Origin: Sipunculus nudus
Lineage: Eukaryota > Annelida > Sipuncula > Golfingiida > Sipunculidae
Direction: 5' to 3'
Length of the DNA stretch: 64,000 nt
Assembly (NCBI GenBank): GCA_026874595.1
Contig: CM049315.1
Location: 66,783,916-66,847,915 of the forward strand
Of this stretch, positions 2,985 through 60,766 are shown piece by piece (positions within the stretch are counted from its first letter, which is position 1; each line of letters begins with the position of its first letter). The translations under genes were made by a program, and so were the position numbers. Below the pieces are notes generated by a model. That model was not told the DNA's origin, ran no database searches, and saw only the letters and a program-made list of their open reading frames with translations.

Positions 2985-3010
2985 TTGGCATTCAGCCAAG
3001 TTTCCCAGAA
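2985..3010 (-). promoter_or_regulatory. Gene 1 promoter module: NF1-like dyad plus STAT/GAS-like site
   Basis: On the + strand this reads TTGGC-N5-GCCAA (2985-2999, a perfect NF1-type dyad), 2 bp, then TTCCCAGAA (3002-3010, the TTCN3GAA form typical of STAT/GAS sites). It sits 96 bp upstream of the proposed gene 1 start codon. The same geometry precedes genes 2, 3 and 4. Factor identities are inferred from consensus only; TTCTGGGAA could also be read as a BCL6- or CSL-related site. Confidence 0.6.
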
Positions 3011-3019
3011 ACACAAGTC

Positions 3020-4250
3020 ATAGGACCACCAATCATCCCGACCCCCCTCTGCCCTGTCACGAAATAAGTGCATTTACATATACTTGGCGTTGGTATGGAT
3101 GACATGTGCACTAACGGATCGATATGTCTACATTTTGGTTTTAAATCACAAACTGCCTCCTACTGATAAAAAAAGACTGTAACGTCATAGTGGACAACAA
3201 AAAGCTAAGTCAGCCATCCGTGTCAAAAGCGCTCCAGGAAAGCTTGCTTTATTTATTGATGAACTGCAGAATGCTGGACCCGAGTGTCGATCCTGCCAAT
3301 CAGTCACATAGACAAGCCCTACATATATACAGCTAATAAGTTTAGTCCAATGTATGAGAATCGGAGGCTGCACTCATTCAATTAATAAAATCTCGACATC
3401 CCCGCTTTCAGCCACGGCAGCCGTTTAAAGGGGTTCGAACCAGTTTCTGTGGTCTAGACCCCATAAGTGTCCCTGATATGAGGATCTAATTGAGGTTTTC
3501 TCATAAGCAGTAAGTTGAAGAATATAGATCAAACTGACCAAGTATTTAAAATTAGGAGTACTTTTGAGGACCTCCAAAACATGTCATGATCAACAAGCAT
3601 ACGAGGTTCAAGACCCAAGAAGAAACAACAGCTGAGAAACTAATACAATTGCTGTCATTTGTCGGTCTCGGAAATAGAATAAACTAACAGACAGAGAGAC
3701 AGAGAAACCTAGAGAAACAGGAAGACAGGGGAACATGTGAAAACAGTATTTTGAATGAGCAGTGTCTGGAAGAGCAGAAACAATAACACTTTAATGTATA
3801 AATGTCGATTCTGAAACGTCGCGCACGAATAAACAGACAGACACACACACAGAACATGTTTCCTGACTTTATTTAAACCGTATGGCTTTCAGAAGCATTG
3901 CTAAATCAATGTGGAATCCAGAATTACACGTCGGACCAAAACAACAAGCAGGCAGGAAAGTTGACAACAGCAGATGAACAGATGAAATATTCTGGCCAAC
4001 AGACTTTGTGAGTAAATAACGCAGGCGCACATGAACTAAAATAATGTCCACCATTGTACTCAAGGCCTGGGCGACTACATGAACGAAGATCTGAGCTATC
4101 CTGATCAAAGCTGAGCCGTGGACTACACGGAACGCCGAGTCTGAGTTTATCACACCAACAAGCTGCGGTCGGCTTCTCAGTTACAGTCTGTTGTAACATG
4201 TTAATTACCCCGGCCGGCGTGGCGGTGTTTTCACATATAAACACACAAAC
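3020..4250. other. Intergenic sequence, no gene recognised
   Basis: No ORF with family features. Short overlapping ORFs at 3869-4322 are low-complexity or chance. The stretch ends in a TA microsatellite. Confidence 0.6.
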
Positions 4251-4255
4251 ACACA

Positions 4256-4257
<2 letters not shown>

Positions 4258-4293
<36 letters not shown>
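4258..4293. repeat. (TA)n microsatellite
   Basis: Uninterrupted TA dinucleotides. They create spurious Tyr-Ile repeat ORFs on both strands. Confidence 0.95.
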
Positions 4294-4297
<4 letters not shown>

Positions 4298-4494
4298 TTT
4301 TATTATTGTCAGCGTGAAACATTTAAATATATTACAATTAAGTATAAGGTTTTAGAAAATAAGGTATTCTGTTTCCAGTATATGTTTTCCAGCCTACGCT
4401 CGGGTGCACTAATCAGTCGGCAATATGGTTACTTTTGTTATGAATCAGACAATCTTTTATACAAATTTATTCTGGATTTTTTGTCATTGTTCAG

Positions 4495-4604
4495 GTTTCG
4501 GATAAATGGTCGAAATTCCGGTTCTCCGTTTTTTTTATTTGGAATGACCGATTTTTCGGATAAGTGATGTTCGGATATTCGTCGTTCTACTGTACCTGCA
4601 AGCG
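4495..4604 (-). mobile_element. pogo/Tigger-like terminal fragment
   Basis: Read on the minus strand, the right edge is TACAGTAGAACGACGAATA followed by TCCGAACATCACTTATCCGA, resembling the CAGTA...TTATCCG ends of pogo/Tigger (Tc1-mariner superfamily) elements. A related end lies at 61745. No transposase and no partner TIR were seen nearby, so this is a solo or truncated end. Confidence 0.4.
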
Positions 4605-4629
4605 CTAACCTATGGTCGTTTAGTTTTTT

Positions 4630-5620
4630 TTTTTTTAGCTCAGCTGACTGACACTCTTTGTCCGTTGTCCGTGCTGTCGTTCGGCCCTCCGGCCGTCTGT
4701 CCGTTAACAGGGCACCAATCGTAACCGCTGGACCTGGAATCTTCTAACTTGACATCCAGAGAGGTTCATAAAAGAACTCATTGGAAACCTGAAATTAGGT
4801 CTCTGATACCTATATTCATTAAGCTATGGGGCTCCGAACACCCCCCCCCCCCCCAGAATAATGATAATTTGAAACAAATGCTCAAATATCTGAACAACTA
4901 ATCAGTTTCTGCAGACTGGTGGCGCCATCTGTATTTGTCGACTTTTTACGATTTTTTTTTTTATTTTCGAGACCTTGAATTATGCGGTCATCTGTTAACA
5001 GGGCACAAATCGTAACGACTGGGCCTAGAATCTTGTATCATGACATGCTGGAAGGCCCATATCAAGTCTCCTAGGAAACCTAAAATTAGGTCTCTGTTAC
5101 CCAAATCCTTTGTAGAATCTTGTATCTTGACATGCCGGGTTGAGGGGGGGGGGCATAAAAAGTCTCCTTGGAAACCTGATATTGGTCCCTGTTAACCATA
5201 TTGTCCGAGCTATGGTGTTCAGAATAACACCATCTGACTCACGGGGCTTCCAAGAATCCTCTTTGAATAATGGATAATCTGATGTATACAAAAGCTCAAG
5301 TATCTGAACAACTAATGCATTGATCACTATGATTGTTTGTATGATATTGATCAAGGAGTGCTTCATCAGTTTCTGCAGGCTGGTGGTGCCACCTGTATTT
5401 TTATATTTTTTACGATTTTTTTTTCTCTATTCTTTAAAAACCTTAAAGATGCGGTCATCTGTTAACAGAGCACAAAAATCCTTAAACCTTAAATTAGCTC
5501 TCTGTTTCCCATATTCTCTGAGCTATGGGGCTTATAAGCACCCCCTAGAATAATTGAAAATTTTATACCAAAGTAGAGCACAAATCATAACCATTAGACC
5601 ATATTTAGTGAGTAAATATT
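4630..5620 (-). repeat. Tandem repeat array, about 3 units, inverted relative to the array at 42.4-44.6 kb
   Basis: Starts TTTAGCTCAGCTGACTGACACT and carries GTCTGTCCGTTAACAGGGCA, a run of ACCTGAAATTAGGTCTCTG phrases, a GGGGCTCCGAACACCCC block and CTGGTGGCGCCATCTG. These are the reverse complements, in order, of the units in the intron of gene 3. Units are diverged and the last is incomplete. It carries only near-matches to the 12-bp palindrome discussed in the findings. Confidence 0.8.
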
Positions 5621-5639
5621 TTTCCTGTTTTTTTTTACA

Positions 5640-7055
5640 AAGTCCATTATGTTCGGGCCTATAACTTAAAGAAATAACACTTAACAGACTTAATTTCTTG
5701 CATGTATATAGGAAGTATATAGAATAATACTTCTTGTAAATATCAAGAAAAAAAATTAAGTGGTTTTGATATTAGGCAGTCCTGAAGTGTGATAATAGGT
5801 GTTTAAAAGAAATTAGATGTTTTCCTTAATTTCTTGATTAAAAAGAACCAGTTTGGTCTATCACAGGCATGTTTCCATTTTTGTTAGGATGCTAGATGGC
5901 AATTTAGAATTAAACTAAAAAAAGGGCAGTTGAGAGAAATTTGAAAAAAAAATTATGATCAGTCACACTAACTGAACTTGGGTATTAAACAGAATTACAG
6001 TCGGACTAATGAACAAAAAGGCAGGAGAAGTTGACACCAGCAGACGAACAGACAGACATACTGACAGAACCTGGATAACAGGTAAACAGACTTTAAATTG
6101 AGGAATAAAATGAGCTATCGTTCGTGTAGATAGGAAAATATTTGACGAAGTTATGAGCAAAAATGAAAAGATTTAAATAAGTTTTTGATGACCTTGACCC
6201 TTGACCTTTCTTTATTAAAATCAAAAGGCTTATGGGAGTTTTATTTTTCTATCAACTGTACAACTGAGAAGCTAATAAAAGCTGAATGCTTAATTATCAT
6301 GATAAATAGGTTATCTTTGAAATCTTCTTTGAAAACCAAGTTGGCTGCCATTATTTAATTTTGAAATTATCAAATTTAAAGTCCTTGAACCCAAAAATGG
6401 CTATTTAGAATGGTTCTAGCATGATTAAGTGCCGAGATGTTGACAAATTACGTTTCTTATGGCGGCCATTTTGAAATCCAAGATGTCTGCCATACTTCCA
6501 AATGTAAGAATGGAAACAGCATCTTCTTCTCCACGTCTTAAATTAGTAAATTATACCTTTTTCCTATTCTACTTTAACATTTAGCAAAAGTTATATTTTT
6601 AGGTTCTGCCTCCTGACTACTAACCCTTAATCGACATATTATCTACAGTAATAGAAAATGGTTCACGGCGGGTCCATTTTGCGTCGTAAACTGCGATGCG
6701 ATATTGCTTATTTCGAGCCTTGCTTAATTCGTCCTAATCCACAAGAAAGCTAGTCATTTCAGGGATACTAGACCGGAGCTTCTGCCGCTGACACTTGAAC
6801 AGTGACCAGCGCCCGCACGACTGAGTGACCGTGTTTGTCTGGTCTGACGTCACACGTCGTGCCAGCCCAGCTGCTGGGTTCGGCGGCACTGAGCTCGGCA
6901 GATTCCGTAAACAGCGTGATCTCTCCAATATATTTTGGTTTTATCATTAGTTTTCTAATAAATATGGTCGAACATCATTTATCAAAAGTAAATTTAAGAT
7001 ATATACTACTGGAAAAGCTACTTTTTGTGATTTTTGGCCTAATCGTTTCATTTGA
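5640..7055. other. Intergenic AT-rich sequence, no gene recognised
   Basis: Homopolymer-rich, with one TGACC(C)TTGACC phrase near 6190 and a short GC-richer patch near 6790-6910. No supported ORF. Confidence 0.5.
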
Positions 7056-7058
7056 GCT

Positions 7059-9015: not shown

Positions 9016-9497
9016 AGGCAGGAATGCATTTTAAATAATATGTTAATTTATCTCGAGCTACTAGTTAAATTTGCCTGAATAAAAAAGTTTCCCTTCAAAG
9101 CTATCCTAATGTATAGAATGCAGGTTACCCCCGGTTATCTGAAATCACTTTCAAGTTATTCCTGGGGGTAGCCTGAACCTAATTTTTGGTGTATCCTACA
9201 CTGTTTAGATTACCGTCTTGCTGAATTAAATCAATGATAAATTTTAATGCTTTTACCAATGATATATTATTTCAATACACTCGGGGAAAGACACAAGAAC
9301 TTAAAGTTTGAAACAGTCTAACAAAAGCTGTCGCATATTGTTAACATTATTATAAAGTGTATTTACTTTACCCGCACACTTCGCAAAAGCGCAGGAAAAA
9401 TTACTTGCAAACAAAGGATATGAAAAGATTCAAACTAATTTTGGAAAACAAGAAGACGTTTATGAATTTTATGTAAATAAACATACAGAAGCAGCTG

Positions 9498-9790: not shown

Positions 9791-9954
9791 CTTAACAATG
9801 ACTCTTTGTACGGATCCTACTGCGATTCATTTTGTACCATAGTTTGTGTAGGTTGTCCCTATATTAAATTTATAACGACTGTTAAAGGAATTTAAAAGCT
9901 CAAACCAATCTCTAACCCAGTTGCTGTTCTCGCATGAGGTAAATGGTCGTAAAC

Positions 9955-10095: not shown

Positions 10096-10099
10096 CCCA

Positions 10100-11630: not shown

Positions 11631-11639
11631 CTCAGTCAG

Positions 11640-14310: not shown

Positions 14311-14361
<51 letters not shown>

Positions 14362-15215: not shown

Positions 15216-15220
15216 TTTTT

Positions 15221-17248
15221 TCACAAAAATTGGGGAACAGCAGAAGGACACTGCATCCATTGCCTGACGATGGTGTCCGTGAAGACGGCGTCAGAGTCGT
15301 CTTCTTCCTGTTCGTCCGCATCCGCTCCATCACTTACACGTGCCACCGCCGTGCCATCCTCGTGAGACATTGATCCCTCCCTCCTTCGGTTCCTGATTTC
15401 CGTTAAGGTCTTTCGGATGTCACTTGGACTAAGTAAGCATTCATCCATGTTTTCGTCGCAGGAAACCTCATCCAAATGGTCCAGGAAGGTGGACTTCACC
15501 ATTGTAATATGTATTCTTGATGGTGGATGTTTTGATGGCACGGGCGGGATCTCTGCATAACGCTCGCTGAAGGGATTGTAGATACCCATTTTCATGTAAA
15601 TGGACTTGTTTTGTTTGAAGGACAAGTAAAAGACCCCTTCATCTTCACCAGGTAGCGCCGCCATCACCTCATGGGTATTTCTGATTGGACGGTCTTTCGG
15701 AAAAGGTTTTATCTTCCATGCGTTTTTAGGTATGTCGTAAACCAGAGTTTTTTTACCACGCTTAATGAACAGTTCCCTCTCTGTACCTAAGACATCAAAC
15801 ACTTCGTCTAGCTTTAGTTTAGCCAGGAATGCTCTCAGTGGAATATTTCCATCAGGGCATGCCAGCTCTCGTAATTGGCCTAATTGTGGTATCAAATGCC
15901 AGATGAAGAGCTTTGATGAATTCCGCACACAAATAATGTACGCCGTGCCGTCTTTCCTCCTCACAACTTTAACGTTCAAGCAGGCACCTCCAGGCTTACT
16001 CCTTCCCTCACACAGGGGCTGCCACGTTAACGTCTCCAGGTCAAAATACTGAATCCGCAGTCTCCATGTCAGCATGTTCTCACTTATACACAGAACGATA
16101 TCTTCCATAAAAACATCTGCAGAAACATCCTCCTCAAGTATCTCCTCCTTAACACAGTAAAGACTATCACTGAGACACAGGAAGTAGTATCGTTGCCCGA
16201 GATGCCCCATCCGAGACTTGGTTTCAGGATACGCCGGAGGGATCTGAATCACGGTCTTAGTTAATATATTCAATAAATTGAACCTCTCTTGTGCAGACCG
16301 AAAACCTACAAAATCTGCACCGGGTCCAGCTCCAAACAAATGCAGGGTAATGTTCCCGTACAGCTCGGTGCAGTTCTCAGGGATCTTCACCGTCAGCCAT
16401 TTCTTCTTTTCGGGTCTGTAGATCAGGTGTATACCCTCACTGTAATTACGGTAATAAATTACTTCTTCCAGTTTTTCAGTGTTGTCTGTTGCGGGCTGCC
16501 AGTGACAACCCTTTTCTGCTTTGGCAGTCTTACACTCTGCACTAGTTGTTACTGACTTCTTCAAGTAGCTTGCAGCTTCTTCAAGATCTCCTATGATGCC
16601 CTCCCTTCCCGGTTTATCTAATTCCTGCCATCTTTGTAGAAAGTCCTTCATCATGTGGTAGGTACAAAACTTACCAATCCCTTCTTTTATGAAATGCAGC
16701 AAGTGACGCAGCTGTACATTGAGTGTTTCTTTTGACTTAATGAGGGTATCATGAAACCGACTGACTGCCACTTCCTTGGCAAAGACTTCAACATCCCCCA
16801 TCAACAACTTATGGCTTAATGCCCAGGTCCAAAAACAGGTTCTCAAACTAAGTGTCTTCAGCAGAAACTCCACGCAGAGTTCCTCTAAACCTTTCATTTC
16901 AAATATTCGAGAAGCAGATATAATCTCTTCTATGTTGTCCCTCTCAATATTGAGTTTACGTTGATAGATAAAAACCAAGACCAGATTGACTGGTCGGATG
17001 GAATCGAACTTATTTGATAGGTTTACCTCTTCTTTCCGAGAACTGTCATAATTTGGGAACTTCCTCCTAAAATAAGGACTGTTGCCGGCCAGAACACATT
17101 GATGTGCAACTCTCTGTTCATTTCCAACCGTGATTCTGACATCACCGTACTCGGACATTTGACATTTCTGACACAGCTGCACCTGTTGACCTTCAAACTT
17201 TCTTGCCCTACCGATGAATGTGGGCTGGTCACTCTGTAGTCTTCTGTC
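15221..17248 (-). CDS. Gene 2 exon 2: BTB-BACK protein with kelch-like C-terminal half
   Basis: A 2028-bp exon, 675 codons plus stop, following an acceptor GCTTCCAG (AG at 17250-17249). After a FIGRARKFEG segment comes BTB (about residues 33-133: EYGDVRITVGNEQRVAHQCV, then NSPYFRRKF), BACK (about 137-210: TCFWTWALS ... ELCVEFLLK just before it), and a 350-residue half with kelch-blade-like strands (YRPEKKKWLTVKIP, YDIPKNAWKIKPFP, YNPFSERYAEIPPVP). The acidic C-terminal tail contains EQEEDDSDAVFTD. By family it is a likely CUL3 adaptor; this is not shown by the sequence. The longest simple ORF begins at a GTG (17182), but homology with the paralogues continues upstream to the acceptor, so the true start lies on another exon. 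Confidence 0.88.
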   Translation of the reverse strand, partial: DRRLQSDQPTFIGRARKFEGQQVQLCQKCQMSEYGDVRITVGNEQRVAHQCVLAGNSPYFRRKFPNYDSSRKEEVNLSNKFDSIRPVNLVLVFIYQRKLNIERDNIEEIISASRIFEMKGLEELCVEFLLKTLSLRTCFWTWALSHKLLMGDVEVFAKEVAVSRFHDTLIKSKETLNVQLRHLLHFIKEGIGKFCTYHMMKDFLQRWQELDKPGREGIIGDLEEAASYLKKSVTTSAECKTAKAEKGCHWQPATDNTEKLEEVIYYRNYSEGIHLIYRPEKKKWLTVKIPENCTELYGNITLHLFGAGPGADFVGFRSAQERFNLLNILTKTVIQIPPAYPETKSRMGHLGQRYYFLCLSDSLYCVKEEILEEDVSADVFMEDIVLCISENMLTWRLRIQYFDLETLTWQPLCEGRSKPGGACLNVKVVRRKDGTAYIICVRNSSKLFIWHLIPQLGQLRELACPDGNIPLRAFLAKLKLDEVFDVLGTERELFIKRGKKTLVYDIPKNAWKIKPFPKDRPIRNTHEVMAALPGEDEGVFYLSFKQNKSIYMKMGIYNPFSERYAEIPPVPSKHPPSRIHITMVKSTFLDHLDEVSCDENMDECLLSPSDIRKTLTEIRNRRREGSMSHEDGTAVARVSDGADADEQEEDDSDAVFTDTIVRQWMQCPSAVPQFL

Positions 17249-17954: not shown

Positions 17955-17957
17955 CAT
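17955..17957 (-). CDS. Gene 2 exon 1 candidate: start codon alone at the exon end
   Basis: The minus strand reads AAAATATG|GTAAGATG, a near-consensus donor immediately after an ATG with A at -3. Splicing to the acceptor at 17249 gives ATG|GAC in phase 0, in frame with exon 2, and supplies G at +4. There is an in-frame TAG upstream and no other in-frame ATG between. The 706-bp intron and the position 193 bp downstream of the promoter module match the layout of the other three genes. It is the least certain of the four first exons. Confidence 0.45.
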
Positions 17958-18149: not shown

Positions 18150-18175
18150 CTGGCTATGGGCCAATATTCCCAGAA
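18150..18175 (-). promoter_or_regulatory. Gene 2 promoter module: NF1-like dyad plus STAT/GAS-like site
   Basis: On + : CTGGC-N5-GCCAA (18150-18164), 2 bp, TTCCCAGAA (18167-18175). The geometry is identical to gene 1, including the 2-bp gap. On the gene strand the site is embedded in GGTATTTCTGGGAATATTGG. Confidence 0.6.
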
Positions 18176-19391: not shown

Positions 19392-22330
19392 TTAAAAATG
19401 CTGCAAATTAGAAGCAAACTTCATGTGTCGAGGAAGGGAGTTCCATAGAGTACTGCCTGCATAAAAAGAGGTAGCCTTGAAGGCTTCAATACGCGGTTTC
19501 GGAAGGATACAGTTTTTGTTTTCGGTTAACCGCGTCGAATAATTATGAATGCCCTTCGCCATATGAAAATTCTTACATAAATATGAAGGGGCTAAATCAT
19601 TTATGCATTTATAGGTTAAAATAGATAGGAGGTACAAATATCACTGTTCAATTGTCATTAGGCCTATTTCTTTCACTAAATCTAAACTTCTTTGAGTTGG
19701 GTCGTAATTTTTTGTTATTATCCTAGCCACACGACACTGCATTCGTTGGATTGCGGCACGGAATGTGCTGGGACAGCTGCCCCATACTGTTAGACTATAA
19801 TCTATTGAGGGTTGAACAAAGGCGTGATATAAAGTGACTAAAAACTTCTGTGGTAGAAATTTGCTGAGCCAATGTAAAAGTCCAATTTTGCAACATAGCT
19901 TTTTAAAAACGGTAGAAGTGTGAGATTTCCATGTGAGATGGGCGTCAATGATCAAGCCAAGATGAGAAAATTCATCGACATTCGGGACAATATCTTTATC
20001 GATAATTATTTGTAATGAATTTGATTGTTTGCGTTGCTTGGAACTCACAAGCATAGTAGCTGATTTTTTGGCGTTTGCAATTAGTTTGTTTTTATTAAGC
20101 CATTTAGTAACTTGGTCTACAGCAGCCTGTAACTTATGTTGTGCTGATTCGCGATCGATGCCGTCTGCGTATAGCGTGATGTCGTCAGCATAAATCGGGC
20201 ATTTTGCGTTTGTTACATTATCGGGCAAGTCATTAAGATATAGTAGGAAAAGAATGGGTCCAAGTACAGTGCCTTGTGGTACACCTGTATCGATGGTTTT
20301 CACCTCAGAATTATAGTTATTGAAGCAGACAAACTGCTTTCGGTCGTATAAATAATTATAAAACCAGGTGTGCGAGTTTCCATTTACGCCATACTGTTTT
20401 AATTTACCCAATAATATATCGTGATTTAGGTAATCAAAACCTTTTTTAAGGTCGAGAAAGCATATGGAGTTTACACGTCCGCAGTTCATAACTGTCAGCC
20501 AATTATCAACTATTCTATGTAATGCAATTTGGGTAGAGTTGTTTGCAAGAAAGGCAGTTTGTTCAGGAGATATCAAGCGTTTGTGGTTTAAGTAATTAAG
20601 GAGATGACGTTTAATGTGCTTCTCTTAGATTTTAATCACATGGCTGGTGATCGAAATTGGCCGGTAATTGTTAGTATCAGAAAGTTTCCCCTTACCCTTA
20701 TAAATGGGTACCACCCTTGCACACTTCCAGTCAGGAAGAACTATTCCTGTACTGAGTGATAAGTTAAGAATATGTGTCAGCGATGGCGCTAAGATGACCG
20801 CGGCCTCTCCAAGTAAGAACCCCGGCATATTAAGGACATCAATTCCATGTTTATTCTTAAATGCGACTAGAAGTTTCACGACATCCTGTTGGCTCATTTG
20901 AGGGATTGAAAACCAAGAATCAGTAAAATCAGGTTGGTCCTGCACAACATCTTTGGTAAATGCTTTGGTTAAGGTTTTTCCAACTGAGGCAAAGAAGTCA
21001 TTCAGGTCATCCGCAGTTAGATCTGGACTATCTTGACCCCGGCTAACTGGATTGATCACGTGTTTTAAAGACTGCCAAATCTCCTTGGGAGATTTTGATG
21101 ACTGTGCCTTGTGTCTATAAAAGGAACGTTTCAGTTGACGGATCATGCAAGTGACCCGATTACGTAACCGCCTGAACTGTGCCCACAGCTGTGGATCATT
21201 ATTTGACACAGCAGATTTACGAATGCGTTCTCGGTTATATATTAGACGCTGGATATCAGGTGACATCCAGGGATTGTGTCTATTATTTCTAACTCTAAAC
21301 GTTCTAAAAGGTGCGTGTTTATTACATATGGTCAGAAATTCATCACGCCATAGATTCCAGGCTGAGATGACATCATTTACATCAGGAAGACAGTGAAATG
21401 TTAATGATGACTGAATGGACCGCTTGAAGGCAAGGGGATCAAATTTCTTAAAGGACTGAATGGACCGCTTGAAGGCAAGGGGATCAAATTTCTTAAAGGA
21501 CCTAACTCTCACAAATTTGGTTCCTTTTTGGCAACTGCCTCCTGAGAGCCGGGTAAAAATAATATAATGATCGCTAAGTGACCATGGAATAACGCCGGAT
21601 GATGAGTGAATACTGGGTGTATTTGTAAAAATCAAATCTATCGTACTGGATGAGGTTGCGGTGACTCGAGTTGGGGAGGTTATAAGTTGATGAAGGTTGT
21701 ATGATGTGGCCATATTCACCAACTCAACATTTATAGACGCTTTGGGGTTATTGAAATCAATATTAAAATCGCCTATGATCACTGTATGAACATGTTTAGC
21801 CATAGCAAGGCTAATGTTATCGAAGAGAAGTTGTAAATAACTTTTGTCAGAGTGAGGCGGTCTATATATACACCCGATCAGAGAGTTACGTCTGTTCCAT
21901 TGAATTTGGACCCAGATTATTTCTAGATGATCATTAGAAATAAAAGGACATACGATAGATTGCAAGGAACTTTGTACATAAATGGCAAACCTCCACCATG
22001 TCTAGTTCGGTCTTTTCGGTAGAGAGTATACCCCGGGATTTCGATTTCATGGGTTGCGATACTATCGTCCAACCGAGTCTCAGTGAGACATACTACATGG
22101 ACCGAACCAACCTTTAGGAGGAGCACTAATTCGTCGAACTTGGGAGGAAGACTTCTTACATTTAAGTGGATTATAGTTAGGCCATTCTTCTTTCGGATAC
22201 ACTGTAGGAGTGTTTCAATTGAGGTACCATTATCATGCGTGTTTGAGGAAGGCACGTTTTGATAATCGGGAATGAACCCGTCATTGTTGTGACCAGGTAA
22301 GTAACTCTCGTTGTAAGGGGTACTGTTCAT
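19392..22330 (-). pseudogene. CR1-like ORF2 (APE endonuclease and reverse transcriptase), disrupted
   Basis: Endonuclease blocks: HLNVRSLPPKFDEL, TETRLDD, IGCIYRPP, VIIGDFNIDF, STIDLIFTN, LSDHYIIF. RT blocks: VPIYKGKGK..NNYRPISI, FLDLKKGFDYLNHDILL, GVPQGTVLGPILFLLYLNDL, and the catalytic IYADDITLY. The C-terminal region carries WNSLPRHMKF. The frame is broken by a 1-nt shift near 21990 and two in-frame stop codons (20625-20627 TAA, 19641-19643 TGA). A 45-bp tandem duplication near 21410-21500 repeats FKKFDPLAFKRSIQS in frame. The enzyme would not be made from this copy as it stands. Confidence 0.9.
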
Positions 22331-27385: not shown

Positions 27386-27643
27386 ATGTATTTATTTTTG
27401 CACCAAAAAAATTGCTTTTCTGCAGGGGGATTTACAACCCTTTCAATGGTAAGTACGTGGACGTTCCATCTGTCTCCTCACAAACCTGTTTCCTACCGAC
27501 AAAATAACGGAATACGTGAGAAGCAGCTTTTTGAAGCCTACTGTGAGATTCCCTTGATGGAAGAATGCCTTCTTGGCAATGTTTGGATCAATACGACGTG
27601 AAAAGCTGTCAGACGCCGATGGCAAAAGCAAGAACGAGAAGCC
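27386..27643 (+). other. Possible upstream exon region of the Asp-rich ORF
   Basis: A 71-codon ORF (27386-27601) ends in TGA and is in the same frame as the Asp-rich ORF, with 14 open codons (KAVRRRWQKQEREA) between the TGA and its ATG. Within it are a good acceptor-like tract (CTTTTCTGCAG ending at 27425) and a perfect donor GTAAGT (from about 27449). Splicing could therefore bypass the stop. I cannot tell whether this is one gene; the evidence is only signal-level. Confidence 0.3.
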
Positions 27644-28945
27644 ATGTCTCATTGTGAGAATCTTGATGACACTGAAGATATGACGGTGAAATTAGATGAT
27701 GACGATGACGTAGATCTGACGGTGAAATCAGATGATGACGACGACGTAGATCTGACGGTGAAATCAGATGTTGACGATGACGTAGATATGACTGTGAACC
27801 CAGATGTTGACGATGACGTAGATATGACTGTGAAACCAGATGATGACGATGACGTAGATATGACGATGGAATCAGATGATGACGATGACTTAGATATGAC
27901 GATGAAATCAGATGTTGACGATGACGTAGATATGACTGTGAACCCAGATGTTGACGATGACGTAGATATTACTGTGAAACCAGATGATGATGATGGCGTG
28001 GATATGACGATGGAATCAGATAATGACGATGACTTAGATATGACGATGAAATCAGATGTTGACGATGACGTAGATATGACGGTGAAACCAGATGTTGACG
28101 ATCACGTAGATCTGACGGTGAAATTAGATGATGACGATGACGTAGATATGACAATGAAATCAGATGATGATGATGGCGTGGATATGACGGTGAAATTAGA
28201 TGATGACGATGACGTAGATCTGACGGTGAAATCAGATGATGACGACGACGTAGATCTGACGGTGAAACCAGATGTTGACGATGACGTAGATATGACGGTG
28301 AAACCAGATGATGACGATGACGTAGATATGACGGTGAAATCAGATGATGACGATGGCGTAGATATGACTGTGAAATCAGATGTTGACGATGACGTAGATA
28401 TAACTGTGAAATTAGATGTTGACGATGACGTAGATATGACGGTGAAACCAGATGGTGACGATGACGTAGATATGACGGTGAAATCAGATGTTGACGATGG
28501 CGTAGATCTGACTGTGAAATCAGATGTTGACGACGACGTAGATCTGACGGTGAAACGAGATGTTGACGATGGCGTAGAAATGACGGTGAAACCAGATGTT
28601 GACGATGGCGTAGAAATGATGGTGAAACCAGATGTTGACGATGGCGTAGATATGACGGTGAAATCAGATGATGACGATGGCGTAGATATGACGTTGAAAT
28701 CAGATGATGACGATGGCGTAGATATGACGGTGAAATCAGATGATGACGATGGCGTAGATATGACTGTGAAATCAGATGTTGACGATGGCGTAGATATGAC
28801 TGTGAAATTAGATGTTGACGACGACGTAGATCTGACGGTGAAACCAGATGTTGACGATGACGTAGATATGACGGTGAAACCAGATGATGACGATGGCGTA
28901 GATATGACCAGGTTTGGCTACTGCTTGTGCAGTAATGTGGATTGA
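27644..28945 (+). CDS. Asp-rich repeat protein ORF (12-aa repeat), unknown function
   Basis: 433 codons, uninterrupted: a short head (MSHCENLDDTED), about 34 units of a 36-bp/12-aa repeat of the form DVDDDVDMTVKS/KP, and a short unique tail (RFGYCLCSNVD). Nearly half the residues are Asp, so the product would be extremely acidic, with regularly spaced Lys and Thr/Met-Val. No signal peptide and no membrane segment at this ATG. Acidic Asp-rich repeat proteins occur among mollusc biomineral and calcium-binding proteins, but this similarity is compositional only. Because the unit is a multiple of three, tandem duplication keeps any frame open, so an open frame alone does not prove coding. A non-coding minisatellite is the main alternative. 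Confidence 0.4.
   Translation: MSHCENLDDTEDMTVKLDDDDDVDLTVKSDDDDDVDLTVKSDVDDDVDMTVNPDVDDDVDMTVKPDDDDDVDMTMESDDDDDLDMTMKSDVDDDVDMTVNPDVDDDVDITVKPDDDDGVDMTMESDNDDDLDMTMKSDVDDDVDMTVKPDVDDHVDLTVKLDDDDDVDMTMKSDDDDGVDMTVKLDDDDDVDLTVKSDDDDDVDLTVKPDVDDDVDMTVKPDDDDDVDMTVKSDDDDGVDMTVKSDVDDDVDITVKLDVDDDVDMTVKPDGDDDVDMTVKSDVDDGVDLTVKSDVDDDVDLTVKRDVDDGVEMTVKPDVDDGVEMMVKPDVDDGVDMTVKSDDDDGVDMTLKSDDDDGVDMTVKSDDDDGVDMTVKSDVDDGVDMTVKLDVDDDVDLTVKPDVDDDVDMTVKPDDDDGVDMTRFGYCLCSNVD
27680..28905. repeat. 36-bp minisatellite, about 34 copies
   Basis: Units of the type GATGTTGACGATGACGTAGA plus TATGACTGTGAAATCA. Variation is concentrated at a few positions: GAT/GTT, GATGAC/GATGGC, ATG/CTG and TCA/CCA/TTA. Blocks of two or three units recur together, indicating higher-order duplication. 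Confidence 0.95.
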
Positions 28946-39915: not shown

Positions 39916-41964
39916 TCAGAAAAGATTTGGACGAATTGCAGGCCTTTGAAACCAGTCTCTTCTCATAACGTCACTCAGCCAGGGATCACGTTCAAGAAGA
40001 TGGAGAATATCCTCCTGATCCCTTCCCGACATTCCCTCAGCGTCTTCCCCTTCCAGGTTTTGTTCATTCCATCTGCTTCTGACTTTCTTCAGTATCCTTC
40101 GGATTCCACGCTGATCAAAGAAACATTCATCCATGTTGTCCTCCAAAGACGCTTCCTCAAGACGGTCCAAAAAGCGGCATTTTACAAGTGAGGTAAGTCC
40201 ATCGGTTGGCATGTAATAAGAAGGTGCCGGTGGAACATCAATGTACCGGTCTTGGAACGGACTGTAGATGCCCATTCCGAAAAATACCGATCTGATTGGT
40301 TTAAAAGACAAGTAGATGTCACCATCTCTTCCATAGTGGCTCCCTAAAATATCTGTTTCTGATATTGTGCACGGACGTTCTTTGGGGAACTTCTGTACCT
40401 CCCATGTATTTTCTTGAATCTTGTATACCAGTGCATTGTTCTTCAGCTTAACGAACAGTTGATCAGCGGTCCCGAATAAATATATATACTCCAAGTACTG
40501 GACATCATCTAGGCATTCTCTTGAGACGACGTGCGCAGCTAGACTGGCTAATTGCTTTAATTGTCCATCAGGTGTGAGATGGTACAACAGGAGTTGTAAT
40601 GGTTCCCTCACACAGACAATGTATACAGACCCATCCTTTCTGACTGAAGTCCTGACTTTCAGAGAGGCACCTCCGGGTAGAGCTTTATCCTCACACAGAA
40701 CCTCCCACTTTAATTTCTTGATATTGAGCCAATCAATGCACAACTTGCACATCTTTTTGTTAGCTGTGACGTACATACCACGCAGCCCTTCGTACCATGG
40801 AGCCTTTGTTTTGCTTGTCTTGGTTTTTGCTGTTCCTTTCTTTTCCAGGTAGACTAGTTCTCTTCCGACGTAAAGAACCCCCGAACATTCAACATGAAAT
40901 GATACACAACATTGTAATGATTCTCCCAATCCAACGTGAAAATCATTGTTCGAATAAGGAATGTCATTTATTTGTTTTGTTGAAATATTGAACAACCTTA
41001 ACCTTTCTTTGATCTTGAAGCCAACTATGTCCGCCGAAGGTCCAAGCCCAATTGAAGGGGGGTAGTCTTCATCCAAATAAATACGCTTTTTTGGTATCAC
41101 AACTTTCAACCAAATCTGCTTTTCTGGTCGATAGATTAAAAGGTTGTTCGTTATAGAGTTTAAATGGACAAAAACCTCTTCAAATCTTTCTAGTTCGGTT
41201 TCTTTACTCTCTGTATTCTTCTCCTTTGGTAGAGTCTCAATATTTTCTGCATCTTGTACTTGTGAATCTTTCTTGAACAGATCTATTAATTGCTCAAACT
41301 GATTGATGTACTTCTCTCTTTCACATTTATGTTTCTCACACCAGCTCTGTATGAATGCTTTCATTTTCTCTTTCGAGCAGAACTTCCCCAGACCTCCTGT
41401 CATGAAATGCAGGATATGAGTCGGTTTAATATTTAGTGCCTCGGTGTGGTTGATGAGGGTATCGTGAAATCGACTAACAGCTACGTTTTGTGCAATATCT
41501 TCTACTTCGCCAATGGAGAAGTCAAAGCTGATTGCCCATGTCCACAAACATGTACTCAGACACAGATTCTTCAACAAATACCGTATACACAGTTCCTCTA
41601 CACGTTTGATGCTGAACAGCCGTGCTACCTGGAGAAGTCCTTCAACTTCATCTTTTTCAATCTGGATATGTCCAGTGTACAGGAACTCCAACACAGTAAC
41701 GACTGGCCTGATGGACTGAATCTTGTCTGACATGTCAAACTCTTCTGGTCCAGGGCTCTCATCGCGTGGGGCCATGTTCCTAAAGTAAGCACTGTTGCCA
41801 GCAAGGATACACCAATGAGCAGCTACTTTGCCATTATTGGCTTTCAAAGTGACATCACAGTGCTCGGATCTTTCAAACTGTTGACGTAGCAACATCTGAA
41901 GGTCCTTCCGATTCCTTGCTCGACTGTCATGGCTTGTAAATTTCTCATGTTCTCGCCTCCTCTC
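39916..41964 (-). CDS. Gene 3 exon 2: BTB-BACK protein with kelch-like C-terminal half
   Basis: A 2049-bp exon, 682 codons plus stop, after acceptor TATTTCTTTTTAG (AG at 41966-41965). With exon 1 the protein is 692 residues. A basic leader (ERRREHEKFTSHDSRARNRK) precedes BTB (about 42-143: RSEHCDVTLKANNGKVAAHW, NSAYFRNM), BACK (about 148-223: TCLWTWAISFDFSIGEVED, KFCSKEKMKAFIQSW), a Glu/Lys-rich linker, and the kelch-like half (YRPEKQIWLKVVIP, YKIQENTWEVQKFPKERP, YSPFQDRYIDVPPAPS). The ending WFQRPAIRPNLF resembles the WMQCPSAVPQF ending of gene 2. The role is inferred as CUL3-type adaptor from the family, with substrate unknown. The gene has the largest intron of the four because of an inserted repeat array. 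Confidence 0.9.
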   Translation of the reverse strand, partial: ERRREHEKFTSHDSRARNRKDLQMLLRQQFERSEHCDVTLKANNGKVAAHWCILAGNSAYFRNMAPRDESPGPEEFDMSDKIQSIRPVVTVLEFLYTGHIQIEKDEVEGLLQVARLFSIKRVEELCIRYLLKNLCLSTCLWTWAISFDFSIGEVEDIAQNVAVSRFHDTLINHTEALNIKPTHILHFMTGGLGKFCSKEKMKAFIQSWCEKHKCEREKYINQFEQLIDLFKKDSQVQDAENIETLPKEKNTESKETELERFEEVFVHLNSITNNLLIYRPEKQIWLKVVIPKKRIYLDEDYPPSIGLGPSADIVGFKIKERLRLFNISTKQINDIPYSNNDFHVGLGESLQCCVSFHVECSGVLYVGRELVYLEKKGTAKTKTSKTKAPWYEGLRGMYVTANKKMCKLCIDWLNIKKLKWEVLCEDKALPGGASLKVRTSVRKDGSVYIVCVREPLQLLLYHLTPDGQLKQLASLAAHVVSRECLDDVQYLEYIYLFGTADQLFVKLKNNALVYKIQENTWEVQKFPKERPCTISETDILGSHYGRDGDIYLSFKPIRSVFFGMGIYSPFQDRYIDVPPAPSYYMPTDGLTSLVKCRFLDRLEEASLEDNMDECFFDQRGIRRILKKVRSRWNEQNLEGEDAEGMSGRDQEDILHLLERDPWLSDVMRRDWFQRPAIRPNLF

Positions 41965-44912: not shown

Positions 44913-44942
44913 CTCTTTTGACACATCATCCTTGGTAGACAT
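44913..44942 (-). CDS. Gene 3 exon 1 (10 codons)
   Basis: Minus ATG at 44942-44940 gives MSTKDDVSKE, then donor GAG|GTACGG (GT at 44912-44911), phase 0. Joined to the acceptor at 41965 the frame continues as ERRREHEKF into the BTB domain. AACAATG gives a fair Kozak context (A at -3). The promoter module lies 150 bp upstream. Confidence 0.65.
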
Positions 44943-45091: not shown

Positions 45092-45117
45092 TTGGATCTC
45101 GTCCAATCTTCCCAGAA
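45092..45117 (-). promoter_or_regulatory. Gene 3 promoter module: NF1-like dyad plus STAT/GAS-like site
   Basis: On + : TTGGA-N5-TCCAA (45092-45106), 2 bp, TTCCCAGAA (45109-45117). 150 bp upstream of the proposed start. It is part of a longer segment (about 45040-45250) that recurs at 47.3 and 48.2 kb. Confidence 0.6.
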
Positions 45118-47259: not shown

Positions 47260-47500
47260 TGAATAAATAATAGCCTGTCGTAGGTACAAAGAGATCTGCG
47301 CTTGACTATGTCAACGTCCCTAAAACTTGGCACGTGTCCAATCTTGACAGAAATACGTCCTCAGCAAAATCACGACGCTGTATGTGGACATATTAACGTT
47401 ACTGAGCCGAACGTGGTGATCTGCTTAGCAGAGAGGTATACAACAGACCACGCAAGCATGTAGTCAGTCAAGCGGGAAATGTAAAAAATCGTATCACATG
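47260..47500 (-). promoter_or_regulatory. Orphan promoter-segment copy with module at 47327-47352
   Basis: Module on + : TTGGC-N5-TCCAA (47327-47341), 2 bp, TTGACAGAA (47344-47352, one change from TTCCCAGAA in the left half-site). It shares GTCCAATCT..ACAGAAATACG and, further out, ACTGAGCC, GCAGAGAG and CAGACCACGCAAGC with the 48.2-kb copy and, less exactly, with the gene 3 promoter. No exon 1-like ATG and donor were found downstream. Confidence 0.5.
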
Positions 47501-48109: not shown

Positions 48110-48350
48110 CTATACCAGCCTTTAGGTAATCGAAAAAAAGGTCCGCGGTTGACAGTAGCAGTTGTCCTCAAATTTGGCTCTAGTCCAATCTCCCCAGAAA
48201 TACGCCGGTAGAGAATTGACTGCGCGTAATGATGACAAAAACTACTGAGCTATACGGGGTGATGTTATTTGCCGAGAGTTGTTCAAGACCACGCAAGCGT
48301 ATAATCAGCCGTGCAAGATATGCAAATAATCATATCACACATGAATGCTG
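48110..48350 (-). promoter_or_regulatory. Orphan promoter-segment copy with module at 48174-48199
   Basis: Module on + : TTGGC-N5-TCCAA (48174-48188), 2 bp, TCCCCAGAA (48191-48199, one change). The outer blocks ACTGAGC, TTATTTGCCGAGAG and AGACCACGCAAGC match the other two copies in order. No attached coding exon recognised. Confidence 0.5.
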
Positions 48351-52700: not shown

Positions 52701-52709
52701 TGCTGGGAG

Positions 52710-55700: not shown

Positions 55701-56620
55701 TGCAAAGTTCACATACTACTAGTATGGTTTTACTTAAAAGCATAAATATACTCTTTATGCAAAAAAAAAAGATTATATGAGTAAAAGTTAGTTCTGCTAA
55801 CAAGAGGCTGCCAGTGTTAAAATCAACGTTACACGCCACAAAAAGCGGACACAGAGTAATCTCGAGTCTAATATCAGTTGGGTATATATTTATACGTGTG
55901 TCTGTGTGTGTTATAAAACCAATGAAATGGAGGAGATTTTTCTATCACCAAGATTGCCAATAATCATACAAAGCACCCAGGGAAGAAATGTAAAGGAGAC
56001 ATCAGTCACATCGAGAAGATTTATTCCCACCATAAAAAAAATTACACAACATTGGAGGTTGACTGACCTTGATGATCGGACATCACCATTATTGTAACGT
56101 GATTGTCATACATAAGAAATATTATCTGTACCAGCATCACTCGAAAATATATATTCAAAGTCAGTTATCAGTGTGTTAAAAATAGCTGAAAGGGGAGGAA
56201 AACCACAACAGATTAATTAATTTAACCTCTCTTTTTTATTTAAAGTTACACTTAGTTGGAATAACTTTTTGTCTTACTGAATAATTATTGAACTTTTCTG
56301 TACCTCACAGGGTTTATTTAAGAGGTTAAGTCTGAAGTATGTCCAGTTGACACCCTCTGAAAATAAAGTAAAAAGGTGATTTTTGATGAATAAAATGGCA
56401 ACCATCCTGCCAATTTGCATGCTTAATAAACTCTGATATAACAACAAGTTCCATGCGCTGAAACCCTGTAATCCCTTATGACTAAAAAATACTATTTTTG
56501 TCCAGCAATCATTATACCAATCAATGATACAAAAATGTCAATCAATGATACCTTTTTATCCAGAACATACGAAGATTATAAGATTTTTTCACAAAAAGTT
56601 TATCTCAGTGTAAACTGAAA
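52710..56620. other. Intergenic, no gene recognised
   Basis: AT-rich with G- and C-runs near 53546 and 53742, and a small ACTTATGT repeat/palindrome cluster near 54290-54410. No ORF with recognisable features. A minus-strand AATAAA at 56631-56636, about 330 bp past the gene 4 stop, is a candidate polyadenylation signal. Confidence 0.5.
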
Positions 56621-56962
56621 TCTTAATATATTTATTTAAAAAAAACTAAAGTACACACTATTCTGCATCGATGCCCGGCTTTAGTGACAATTGTGCAGAA
56701 AAAAATGAAATTGATGACAGAAAGATTCTCCATAATATTTGAAATTAAATTACAGAACTCTGGCAGAATTACAAATAAAAGTGGAAGATATATGATAATT
56801 TCAGAAAATAACGCTGAATGTCTCAAGCTACATGATTACTTGCTTAAATTGTCTGAATATTAGAAAGCGTCTTTAAAACAAAATGATATAACATGACCTC
56901 TCTAAGTACATAAACAAAAACACATGAAGCCGTTCTGTTGCGAGGCTTCTGTCTCGAGCGCC

Positions 56963-59041
56963 TCAGTAGGAGTCGTATTCGTCATCCACCAGGGACTGGT
57001 GTATCAGCTGCCTCATCGCGATGTCCTGCAACACGGCAGCAGCAACCTTCTTCCTCTCCTCCTCTTCCTCTGGATCTTCTCCATCGCTGTTCCACATCAT
57101 TTCGTCAGCTTCATCCAAACTCTCCCCGTGGGACATGGCATCCAACGCCTCCTCCCTCCATCTACTTCTGACCGTCTTCAGGATCTTCAGTATCTCAGCT
57201 GATTCTAACAAACCCTTCTCAATGTTGGTCTCACAGGTGGCTTCTCCTAAGCGATCCAAGAAGCAGCGCCTTACCAGACCAATACGAATATTGATTGGTT
57301 GATAGCATGATGGAACTGTAGGCACCTCAGTCAGACACTCTTTGAAAGGGTTGTATATTCCAGCCTCCATATATGAAGAGCGGATCTTCTTGTAGAGCAA
57401 GTAGATGTTGCCTTCATTCTCACTATTGAGCGACATCTTTACCTCTCGTGTTGATCTGATGGGACGGTCCTTTGGAAACTGCTTCACTTCCCATGCATTC
57501 TTTTGTATCTTGTACACCAGGGCATTTCTGCCTAGTTTGATAAGCAGTTGATCATCTGTGCCCAGGATGTCAAAAGGATCATTGGTCTTAAGATCAGCCA
57601 GCAGTGATCTCAGAGGAATGTTAGCAGCGGGACTTGCCAACCGCTGTAACTCTCCACTAGATGGCGTCAGATGCCAGATGAGAATCTTCGATGGCTCTCT
57701 CATACAAATAATGTATCCCGCTCCATCCTTCCTGATTACGACTCTCACTTTTAGACAAAAACCTCCTTGCTCACTCTCGCTCACACAGACAGGCTCCCAT
57801 TTGCGTGTTTCCATGTTGTACCGTTCAAATATGAACTTCCACGTCTTCTTGCTGTCGGCACAATAGGCGCCTCGCATTCTCTCATACCATACGCCCGTCT
57901 TTTCTTGATCTTTCTTGGACTTTGCCGAGTCGTTCTTTTCAGTTGACACCTCCTCCTTAAACGAGTACAGGTTACCATCGTTGAAGGATAACACTTGAGA
58001 TTTGTTTGTTCGTCCAGATCCATATTCTCTGTCCTCGGTGTCCATATGTATGTACTTCGTTTCCTTGGAATCCATGTTGAGTAGCCTGAACTCACGGTAA
58101 CCGTATGGAATGCAGGCGAATTCTCCTAATGATCCAATGCCATACAAAGAATGGTTTCCATCGCCATGGACTGTTCCTGAAGCAAGATGACGTGGGATTC
58201 CTACAGTAAACCAAGTCTTCTTCTGCGGCCGGTATATCAACTGTACGCCTTGGTTCCCATTCTCATAAAAAAGCACCTCTTCTACGTGGTTACCATTCGT
58301 TTCCTTGTCATCCTTCTCATCCCCGTCAGCACCCGAGGCCTGGATATCTTCCGTTGACAAACCAGCTGCTTCCTTCAGCTCCAGGAGTTTGGGGCCCCTG
58401 CCTGGATTATCTTTCTCACACCACTGCTTTAAAAAGTCCTCCAGCTTTTGCTCAGAACAAAACTTAGCAAGTCCTTGTTTCAGGAAATGCAGCAGATGAG
58501 TTGCCCGCATTTCCATTGCCTCATTGCTTTTGATGAGAGTATCATAGAAACGGCTTAGGGCAACATCCTTGGACACCTCCTCAATTTCCCTTATTGAGAG
58601 GTCAACACTGACGGCCCAGGTCCACAAGCACGTGGACACGCTGAGGTTCTTCAGAAGAAAGTGGACGCACAACTCTTCTAAATCCTTCATCTTGAATAAC
58701 TGAGCTACCTGGAAAAGTCCCTCGACGTCTGACTTTTCGATCTGGATCTCGCCATGGTAGATGAATTCCAGCACTGATGTGACCGGCTGGATGGTTTCCA
58801 GCTGGTTAGAGAGGTCGACCTCTTTCGGTCCCGATGTACCATCGGTGGAAAACATCTTGCGGATGTAGGGGCTGATGCCCGCCATAACACAATGATGTGC
58901 AAGAGCCTTGTCATCACCAACCTTAAGGGATAGGTCACAGTACTCAGACCGGTCGTATTGCTGACACAGCAACACCTGCAGACCCTTTCTTTTCCTAGCT
59001 CTACCAACAAATGATGCTGATTGTTCATTCTTTCTTCTTGC
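56963..59041 (-). CDS. Gene 4 exon 2: BTB-BACK protein with kelch-like C-terminal half
   Basis: A 2079-bp exon, 692 codons plus stop, after acceptor TTCTTTTTCAG (AG at 59043-59042). With exon 1 the protein is 704 residues. FVGRARKRKG leader, BTB (about 44-145: RSEYCDLSLKVGDDKALAHH, SPYIRKMF), BACK (about 150-235: TCLWTWAVSVDLSIREIEE, KFCSEQKLEDFLKQW), linker, then the kelch-like half (YRPQKKTWFTVGIP, YNMETRKWEPVCV, YKIQKNAWEVKQFPKDRP, YNPFKECLTEVPTVPS). The C-terminus is strongly acidic (DGEDPEEEEERKK) and ends DDEYDSY. An extended ORF reading adds 14 hydrophobic residues upstream, but these are intron sequence before the acceptor. Inferred CUL3-type adaptor. Confidence 0.9.
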   Translation of the reverse strand, partial: ARRKNEQSASFVGRARKRKGLQVLLCQQYDRSEYCDLSLKVGDDKALAHHCVMAGISPYIRKMFSTDGTSGPKEVDLSNQLETIQPVTSVLEFIYHGEIQIEKSDVEGLFQVAQLFKMKDLEELCVHFLLKNLSVSTCLWTWAVSVDLSIREIEEVSKDVALSRFYDTLIKSNEAMEMRATHLLHFLKQGLAKFCSEQKLEDFLKQWCEKDNPGRGPKLLELKEAAGLSTEDIQASGADGDEKDDKETNGNHVEEVLFYENGNQGVQLIYRPQKKTWFTVGIPRHLASGTVHGDGNHSLYGIGSLGEFACIPYGYREFRLLNMDSKETKYIHMDTEDREYGSGRTNKSQVLSFNDGNLYSFKEEVSTEKNDSAKSKKDQEKTGVWYERMRGAYCADSKKTWKFIFERYNMETRKWEPVCVSESEQGGFCLKVRVVIRKDGAGYIICMREPSKILIWHLTPSSGELQRLASPAANIPLRSLLADLKTNDPFDILGTDDQLLIKLGRNALVYKIQKNAWEVKQFPKDRPIRSTREVKMSLNSENEGNIYLLYKKIRSSYMEAGIYNPFKECLTEVPTVPSCYQPINIRIGLVRRCFLDRLGEATCETNIEKGLLESAEILKILKTVRSRWREEALDAMSHGESLDEADEMMWNSDGEDPEEEEERKKVAAAVLQDIAMRQLIHQSLVDDEYDSY

Positions 59042-60579
59042 CTGAAAAAGAATGAAAAAAATGACAGAATCCTGACGTTTCATTGGATGATAACATAACT
59101 GCTTTGATTAACGTAAGGAGAACCAAATTCAATTATTTACAAATAAAAGGCTCTGACTGCTTCGGTGGAGGAGTAATGTATAAACCAGTATACCTTTGAA
59201 CATTTTCGCATGTAAAGATATTTTGAGAATAATTTGACTACAGCCATGCAAGGCTGGAGGGAGATCATTGTCGGTCCTCACTCCACCCGCCTTTTTATAA
59301 GTCATTAGGGCTGACATGATCATCATTAAACCAAGAAAGTTCTCTTAGGAAACCCAAAGTTAGGTCACAGTGACTTATCATTTGACTTGACGGATTTCAA
59401 AGGGTCCTATTCTGATATCTGAGGTCTATTAACTACAGATAATCCCTTGAACCTTTTATATAGACCAGAAAATGCCAGTCCTATGGCACACAGGCATCTT
59501 TTCTTGTCTCCACGTGCTGATAGCATGTGAGGGCCTGCATGCCTACATTATCCAAACACAAACAACGAGGACATTTGGCGGTAAGTCAGACGATCCAGAG
59601 TTTTGCAACGGGCGTTTTGCAACTGGTGACCTTCAAACCTCTGGACATATGCTACCAATCACCTTAGAATACGTTTTCTCCCCGTTTACCAGCATTGCTG
59701 TGTTAATAACAGTTTATATATAATCATGCACATACATCCGTCATGAGAACTTTTTTTAACAGGAATTATAAAGAGTCCATTATCATATATGAAGAGTAAG
59801 TCAGAAAACACATTCTTTCTACAGAAAAAAGTAAGACAACAGCTTGCTTTAAGCACTTAAAAAATAAACCCTTTTAAACCGCACTTTTGGAAATATTTTG
59901 ACTGAGTAAAATATTTGAGAAATGATGCCTCATTTCATCCCAGTCATCATAATGTATAAAAGAAATGGCCGTAACGCTAATATTCATGCAAACAATCCAT
60001 TATTATTATACGGAAACAAGTTCACGCACACATACAAACCCTGAATGTCATTTTACATCTATTTTTCATGTTAACGATAAAAAAAGGAGAAATTGATCTG
60101 ATACTGACAGCTCAATATTCAAATTTAGTTATCATTACTTAAACACATACTAACCGGAAGTCTCCAAAAGCCACCAAAACAATTAAATGACAATGTATGG
60201 GTGCAATAAACTAAAAAAAATTAAACAATAACTCATTATTCCGTCTGTTTTTATTTGTTCAATCCTTTTACATACACACATGCGCACACACCTGGGTGCA
60301 TGCTTCTGTACTAATGTTCAGCGCACTGTCATGGCCCATGGACAGTCAGTTAAAAAAAGGAGGGCGATGGAACCCGATGAGGAGCTGGTCCTCAAATTGA
60401 TATTTTTTCACTAACACTGAAGAAAAGCAGATGGGCCCAGGGGTTTATAAACCCAGACATGTTTTTTGTGGCCATTCTTAATTAGTACGGGGAAAATGGC
60501 GGCAATTTATGCTTAAAACCATGTAAATCCTGTTCAAGCTGTCCTGAAATATCACCAGTCTGGTATTAAGGAAGCTTAC

Positions 60580-60615
60580 CTCTCTGAGCACCTGGTGCTG
60601 GACAAATGGGAACAT
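60580..60615 (-). CDS. Gene 4 exon 1 (12 codons)
   Basis: The minus strand has a perfect Kozak start, GCCACCATG (ATG at 60615-60613), giving MFPFVQHQVLRE, followed by donor GAG|GTAAGC (GT at 60579-60578) in phase 0. It joins to ARRKNEQSAS at 59041. This is the best supported of the four first exons. The intron is 1538 bp and the promoter module is 126 bp upstream. Confidence 0.72.
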
Positions 60616-60740
60616 GGTGGCGTCTCCGGAGAGTGTAATTTTGTGTCGACCGAGGTACCCGCTGAAGGACTGTCAAAATTGTCTCGCCCACTCAGCCGGG
60701 GATGTGGGTGCTGAATGCTTGGTAACGACTAAAATGAAGC

Positions 60741-60766
60741 CTGGCTGGAAGCCAAGTTTCCCAGAA
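60741..60766 (-). promoter_or_regulatory. Gene 4 promoter module: NF1-like dyad plus STAT/GAS-like site
   Basis: On + : CTGGC-N5-GCCAA (60741-60755), 2 bp, TTCCCAGAA (60758-60766). Same geometry as the other copies; surrounding sequence is otherwise not similar, which points to constraint on the module itself. Confidence 0.6.

Follow-up and report, generated by a model that had tools for sequence, protein, structure and literature searches.

An expanding family of BTB-BACK genes in Sipunculus nudus carries, ahead of a predicted short first exon, a bipartite module of 26 bp in which two half-sites keep the same order, orientation and distance. Because it is fixed, stands before the first exons of most family members and is found almost nowhere else in its exact form, the module is very probably a selected control switch. 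We propose that it is a composite promoter element of the family, at which STAT and NFI dimers would bind in a fixed geometry and through which the genes would respond jointly; we give this reading about an even chance of being right, since the factors, their cooperativity, the signal and the induction are all things that we infer.

Results

Copies of the module in the window

The window, meaning the whole stretch of 64,000 nucleotides that was analysed, corresponds to C10:66783916-66847915 of the S. nudus genome (1,426,538,692 bases in 153 contigs). A scan with YTGGM-N5-KCCAA-N2-TTCYCAGAA at up to three mismatches gave six matches, at the six positions where a preliminary description had placed the module and nowhere else in the window; four were exact, the copy at 48174 had one mismatch and that at 47327 had two. 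When the window was shuffled with dinucleotide content preserved, the mean number of matches at the same threshold was 0.22 and the largest two, and none of 100 shuffles attained six.

All six copies read in gene orientation on the minus strand. The exact ones are those of gene 1 (2985..3010, reading TTCTGGGAA-AC-TTGGC-N5-GCCAA), gene 2 (18150..18175), gene 3 (45092..45117, with the dyad TTGGA-N5-TCCAA) and gene 4 (60741..60766). The two orphan copies, neither followed by an exon 1, lie at 47327..47352, where the STAT-like half is damaged (TTCTGTCAA), and at 48174..48199, where it is one base off (TTCTGGGGA). As had been claimed, the 2-bp and 5-bp spacings are identical in the six copies. The description of each copy as exact or a one-base variant holds for five of them and fails for 47327, which reads TTGACAGAA and so carries two substitutions relative to TTCCCAGAA; similarly, TTCN3GAA, attributed to every copy, is present at genes 1-4, and in both orphans the palindrome is broken.

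The gene family

Searching the genome with the gene 4 protein returned 68 matches, pieces and distant BTB proteins included. We defined the close family as 11 copies whose main exon has no stop, hereafter intact, and four broken copies, one on C10 and three on C16. The intact members are genes 1-4 and a further gene at 66881831 on C10 (the sixth C10 copy), a divergent pair on C15 and four genes on C16. Two long frames on C11, more distant and 37-38% identical over the BTB part, were excluded, and no exact or one-mismatch module copy was found on that contig. An additional 3' family fragment lies at C16:25836473-25836631.

The main exons of the window genes, all on the minus strand, lie at 1..1889 (gene 1, continuing beyond the window; BTB E 3.6e-25), 15221..17248 (gene 2; BTB E 4.2e-16), 39916..41964 (gene 3; BTB E 6.3e-19) and 56963..59041 (gene 4; BTB E 4.9e-19, BACK E 4.6e-5). 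Pfam thus recognises a BTB domain in all four; BACK is above the cut-off in gene 4 only, yet with no single stretch passing alone, and no kelch repeats were found by Pfam in the window genes. The family profile matches the BTB-BACK part of KBTBD4 and KLHL11. For a weak structural model (mean pLDDT 54) the closest fold match was KBTBD2, with low TM-scores of 0.2-0.26 and kelch domains matching too. We take these to be BTB-BACK genes of the KBTBD/KLHL type, for which a Cul3-adaptor function, and so a role as ubiquitin-ligase adaptors, is probable; unlike the Cul3 adaptors KBTBD2, KBTBD4 and KLHL, they have no kelch that Pfam recognises. A search of protein databases gave a single weak match, in Pomacea canaliculata.

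Several other features of the window were recorded. Within the gene 1 frame, the BTB part is separated from the C-terminal part by about a dozen 45-bp repeats (535-1299), which encode a 15-residue unit, TQAPVSKPAGVTKEE. A 433-aa frame at 27552-28945 consists of some 34 36-bp repeats that encode an acidic 12-residue unit (such as VDMTVKSDDDDG). On the plus strand, tblastn with the low-complexity filter off weakly matched 27427-27682 to the C-terminal part of gene 4 (E 5e-6); this is perhaps a decayed family fragment. Retrotransposon frames with reverse transcriptase and endonuclease occupy 19641-21965, flanked by genes 2 and 3.

Position of the module before a predicted first exon

In eight of the 11 intact genes, on three contigs, the module stands ahead of a predicted short first exon. 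It is exact in genes 1-4, in the C16 gene at 25862156 and in one member of the C15 pair, the other member having a single mismatch. In the 66881831 gene both halves deviate, to CTCTGGGAA and TTGGG, and its STAT half is not intact because it reads CTCTGGGAA. Among the four broken copies one has a module, an exact one, in the C10 copy at about 66849900.

An in-frame ATG followed by a phase-0 donor could be drawn after the module in all eight promoters. Five of these predicted exons have 12 residues (MFPFVQHQVLRE, MFPPFHAQVLRE, MFSPFHPEVQIE, MFPFFHQGLQRE and MFPPFPSNVRNT), and it is this likeness across five genes that supports the predictions; the C16 exon fell outside our first search pattern and was spotted by eye, then checked. 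The remaining ones are of 17 residues in gene 1, ten in gene 3 and the ATG alone in gene 2. In the window, drawn from pattern and frame only, the predicted coding exons 1 on the minus strand are 2812..2862 for gene 1 (MEKVFSPFRVYKGVPTE, donor gtaaat, phase 0), 17955..17957 for the part assigned to gene 2 (ATG, then gtaaga), 44913..44942 for gene 3 (MSTKDDVSKE, donor gtacgg, phase 0) and 60580..60615 for gene 4 (MFPFVQHQVLRE, donor gtaagc, phase 0). The distance from the module end to the predicted ATG is 122 bp in gene 1 (an in-frame ATG also lies at 95), 192 in gene 2, 149 in gene 3 and 125 in gene 4. Over the eight promoters it spans 122-192 bp, near the 96-193 bp first given. It therefore varies by 70 bp, and the 2-bp and 5-bp spacers are constant among the same copies. 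Downstream of the orphans, of the broken C10 copy and of the C7 copy described below, we found no exon 1 of the family type.

The orphans lie 2.2 and 3.1 kb upstream of the gene 3 module and their left halves are decaying. The region of that module aligns with the 47327 copy over 174 columns at 66% and with the 48174 copy over 48 bp at 83%, and the two orphans align with each other over 180 columns at 70%. They look like partial duplicates of the gene 3 promoter that lack exon 1, and may be upstream enhancers retaining putative NFI binding, or relics. The idea of a functional family promoter module with fixed geometry is supported, and that of the orphans as independent full modules was revised to likely partial duplications.

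C16 genes and repeat arrays

Scans of 6, 12 and 23 kb for the other three intact C16 genes revealed no module that has an exon 1 after it. The gene at 25810437 has no module copy at all within 12 kb. Upstream of the other two, in the orientation of the gene, are exact or near-exact copies that belong to repeat arrays 3' of neighbouring family remnants, 4.4 kb away (25778747) for the gene at 25783152 and from 1.2 kb (25836864) for that at 25835676. There are four such arrays on C16 (25778747-25778819, 25836864-25836889, 25839910-25839935 and 25864416-25864579), antisense to family copies and about 230-350 bp 3' of these or of remnants. They are built of TTCTGGGAAAACYGGAGTTAAGCCAG-like units with a period of 44-47 and have the composite core in common with the module. 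The exact matches at 25778747, 25836864 and 25864416 were rejected as promoter modules, being array members in a 3' and antisense position. Those at 25778747 and 25836864 may nevertheless have a promoter role for the C16 gene downstream, with no exon 1 recognised after either; the arrays themselves may have arisen by chance as a minisatellite, or may represent a remnant of the module or an enhancer.

Genome-wide distribution and spacing

In the whole genome the exact pattern with KCCAA occurs seven times (none for the reversed-pattern control), and with the wider right half KCCAR 11 times. Ten of the 11 exact composites fall in the three BTB-family clusters on C10, C15 and C16, which total 199,429 bp or 0.014% of the genome, the C16 span having been drawn to take in its outermost match; the remaining one is on C7. 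Equal frequency away from the family, which the preliminary description had set as the observation that would speak against the module, is not what was found for the exact motif. The enrichment has a binomial probability of 3e-38, assuming uniform placement of copies that are kin by descent; because of this kinship it proves restriction to the family only. Seven of the ten cluster copies are promoter copies (genes 1-4, the broken fifth C10 copy, one C15 gene and one C16 gene) and three lie in the C16 arrays.

Copies with one mismatch number 35. The clusters contain four of them, namely 48174, a C15 promoter copy and two copies in C16 arrays, and the 31 outside the clusters include several repeat families; near the one-mismatch copies on C2 and C3 no recognisable gene was found within 4-5 kb. 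At up to two mismatches the pattern occurred 1006 times and the reversed pattern 108 times, a level that is uninformative because many among the matches listed are repeats. A repeat of the form TTGGCAGACTGCCAACTTTRTCAGAT, frequent genome-wide (e.g., C1:11993630), contains a perfect NFI-like dyad and is a look-alike of the module.

When TTCTGGGAA followed by the dyad at any gap of 0-30 bp was counted, 18 places were found genome-wide (one in the reversed control), 11 of them at gap 2; the seven others have gaps of 20, 21, 30, 27, 6, 23 and 8, all different. The opposite order of the halves occurs at nine places (control, one), with gaps of 5, 6, 1, 16, 12, 30, 19, 21 and 12, none at gap 2, and one of the nine sits within a C16 array. 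Across 264 kb surrounding the sites, regions picked for carrying the module, all eight pairings within 40 bp are at gap 2. A single gap and a single order are therefore favoured above chance.

The lone exact C7 copy has a DEAH-type gene on either side; it is 7 kb upstream of one of the two and reversed. It may be a chance occurrence, with 0.23 expected per gap (p 0.21). The two flanking genes, both stop-to-stop frames on the minus strand, measure 2139 aa (C7:43966922-43973338) and 2097 aa (43992870-43999160). In the second, a domain scan recognised a DEAH helicase together with IBR and KH_DEAH11 domains; by eye the first appears similar, and both end in CaaX-like tails (CRIL, CIIL).

Conservation against the surroundings

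Six paralogues, the C15 genes excluded, have amino-acid identities of 37-48% and fourfold-site identities of 28-45%, near and partly above the random level. The flanks compared in register are at about chance identity for most promoter pairs, and the divergence noted earlier for genes 1, 2 and 4 was reproduced in ungapped register. Across the eight promoters the module holds 32.6 bits, and all other 26-bp stretches in register within 100 bp stay at or below 11.3. A Gibbs search that was blind to the module recovered it, in 20 restarts, in all eight promoters; 280 shuffled sets with eight restarts each gave a mean of 19.4 and a maximum of 20.6 bits. The shuffles, the genome counts, the Gibbs search and the gap test together rule out a chance origin of the module.

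Discussion

The natural reading of these comparisons is purifying selection on the module, which very probably accounts for its conservation better than recent duplication does. That the module is mere residue of gene duplication, alike because recently copied, would agree with every promoter copy coming from one family, with the longer flanks, 66-83% identical over 48-180 columns, that gene 3 and both orphans have in common, and with short matches of 22 bp between genes 2 and 3 and of 42 bp (76%) between genes 1 and 4, the latter at a distance from the module. It does not agree with flanks at chance level in most promoters, nor with the low fourfold-site identity, nor with the spread of the copies over three contigs; in its simple form it is contradicted for genes 1, 2 and 4, the sixth C10 gene and the C16 gene, and we regard it as very improbable. 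An accidental insertion of a repeat or transposon near family genes is somewhat less so, and still improbable. In its favour are the excess over the reversed control at two mismatches, where many of the matches listed are repeats with a similar dyad (e.g., TTGGCAGACTGCCAACTTTATCAGAT), and the arrays on C16, which carry the core of the module 3' of family copies; the promoter copies, however, hold their position before exon 1, and no common repeat-like sequence surrounds the eight of them in this assembly, which is not repeat-masked.

Regarding the factors, the right half is probably an NFI site. NFI dimers bind TTGGC(N)5GCCAA (PMC3610271), which agrees with the NF1-type reading first proposed, and the YTGGM-N5-KCCAR dyad has a 5-bp spacer in all copies. 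It departs from the consensus in the TTGGG left half of the sixth C10 gene and in a final T in one C15 gene, and in gene 3 the symmetry is kept (TTGGA/TCCAA). One NFI locus was found in the genome, recognised by the pre-N domain PF10524 (C4:71788614-71788730, E 4.7e-25); a genome search with PF00859 (NFI) gave no match, and none in any control either. For the left half a STAT site is plausible. TTCTGGGAA is identical to a STAT3 GAS site reported in the human PXN promoter (PMC5454848), and TTCN3GAA is found in seven of the eight intact-gene promoters and the broken C10 copy, being absent from the sixth C10 gene and the two orphans. A STAT locus at C12:15276158-15277050 has two STAT_bind pieces above the cut-off (positions 1-84 of 133), one of them with an internal TAG stop. 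The STAT reading of the preliminary description thus stands as to the 9-mer and is weakened by the TGG centre, which is invariant in all eight promoters and stricter than TTCN3GAA demands.

That centre can also be explained if, next to the same NFI dyad, the left half is instead CTGGGAA, a site for RBPJ/CSL, the Notch effector, or for another zinc-finger protein; CTGGGAA resembles the ZNF143 core. TCTGGGAA, centre included, is invariant in eight of eight promoters, the sixth C10 gene lacks the first T of TTC and still has CTGGGAA, and a probe containing it, CACTGGGAACCTACCC, was used for RBPJ (PMC3945225). The TTC half is nearly invariant too (T in seven of eight, T in eight, C in eight), and TTCN3GAA is kept in seven promoters, so that we consider RBPJ unlikely, if the strongest of the alternatives. 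A little less likely again is a functional composite read by other factors, e.g., one long zinc-finger protein covering all 26 bp. A block fixed throughout in spacing and orientation is what one protein would need. Against it, conservation is poor in the five-base spacer, and the dyad form of the right half, seen in gene 3 too as TTGGA-N5-TCCAA, suggests a dimer.

For STAT together with NFI, the closest known arrangement is the E1 enhancer of mouse Wap, which contains STAT5A and NFIB sites in one control region, much as the module would combine STAT and NFI sites (PMC9569684); there, loss of the STAT5 and NFIB sites was reported to be insufficient to disrupt the super-enhancer. It differs in that ELF5 and GR participate, and the available part of that account describes no family-wide fixed 2-bp geometry. 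The PXN element has the identical 9-mer as a single site, with no adjacent NFI dyad reported in the portion available (PMC5454848). NFI/CTF sites, as presented in the accessible text of PMC3610271, have the same dyad and 5-bp spacer, whereas in the module a second site stands 2 bp from the dyad and the exact composite is confined almost wholly to one family. In a literature search covering titles and the beginnings of abstracts, no element like this module was described.

For the STAT-NFI element proposed here, direct support comes from the sequence, the geometry, the confinement of exact copies to the family, the conservation relative to silent sites and the presence of STAT and NFI loci. The module would have been kept by purifying selection just upstream of the predicted short first coding exon during the spread to three contigs. 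Its YTGGM-N5-KCCAR half would most likely be bound by an NFI dimer and the TTCTGGGAA half, exactly 2 bp away and in one orientation, most likely by a STAT dimer. The half-site centres are 14 bp apart, about 1.3 turns, which would not bring the dimers onto the same face of the DNA. The dimers would touch each other or a common coactivator, so that spacing and order could not drift, and the family promoters would respond together. The three intact genes without a module followed by exon 1, out of 11 and all on C16, count against this explanation, and so do this centre distance, the disrupted STAT half of the sixth C10 gene, the strict TGG centre, the stop within one STAT piece and the Wap result.

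Promoter sequence usually decays fast; here, the two halves kept order, orientation and spacing despite drifted flanks and diverged silent sites. It is conceivable, if rather doubtful at present, that a lineage-expanded family of Cul3-type adaptors forms one inducible regulon with a private STAT-NFI address label; the module would then predict the promoters of the family, and its loss or duplication, as in the C16 genes and the gene 3 orphans, would mean leaving the regulon or a change of dose. If the factors are indeed STAT and NFI, rigid cooperative control could be studied at the module in an invertebrate, and a named signal would be linked to an expanding gene family that probably encodes ubiquitin-ligase adaptors.
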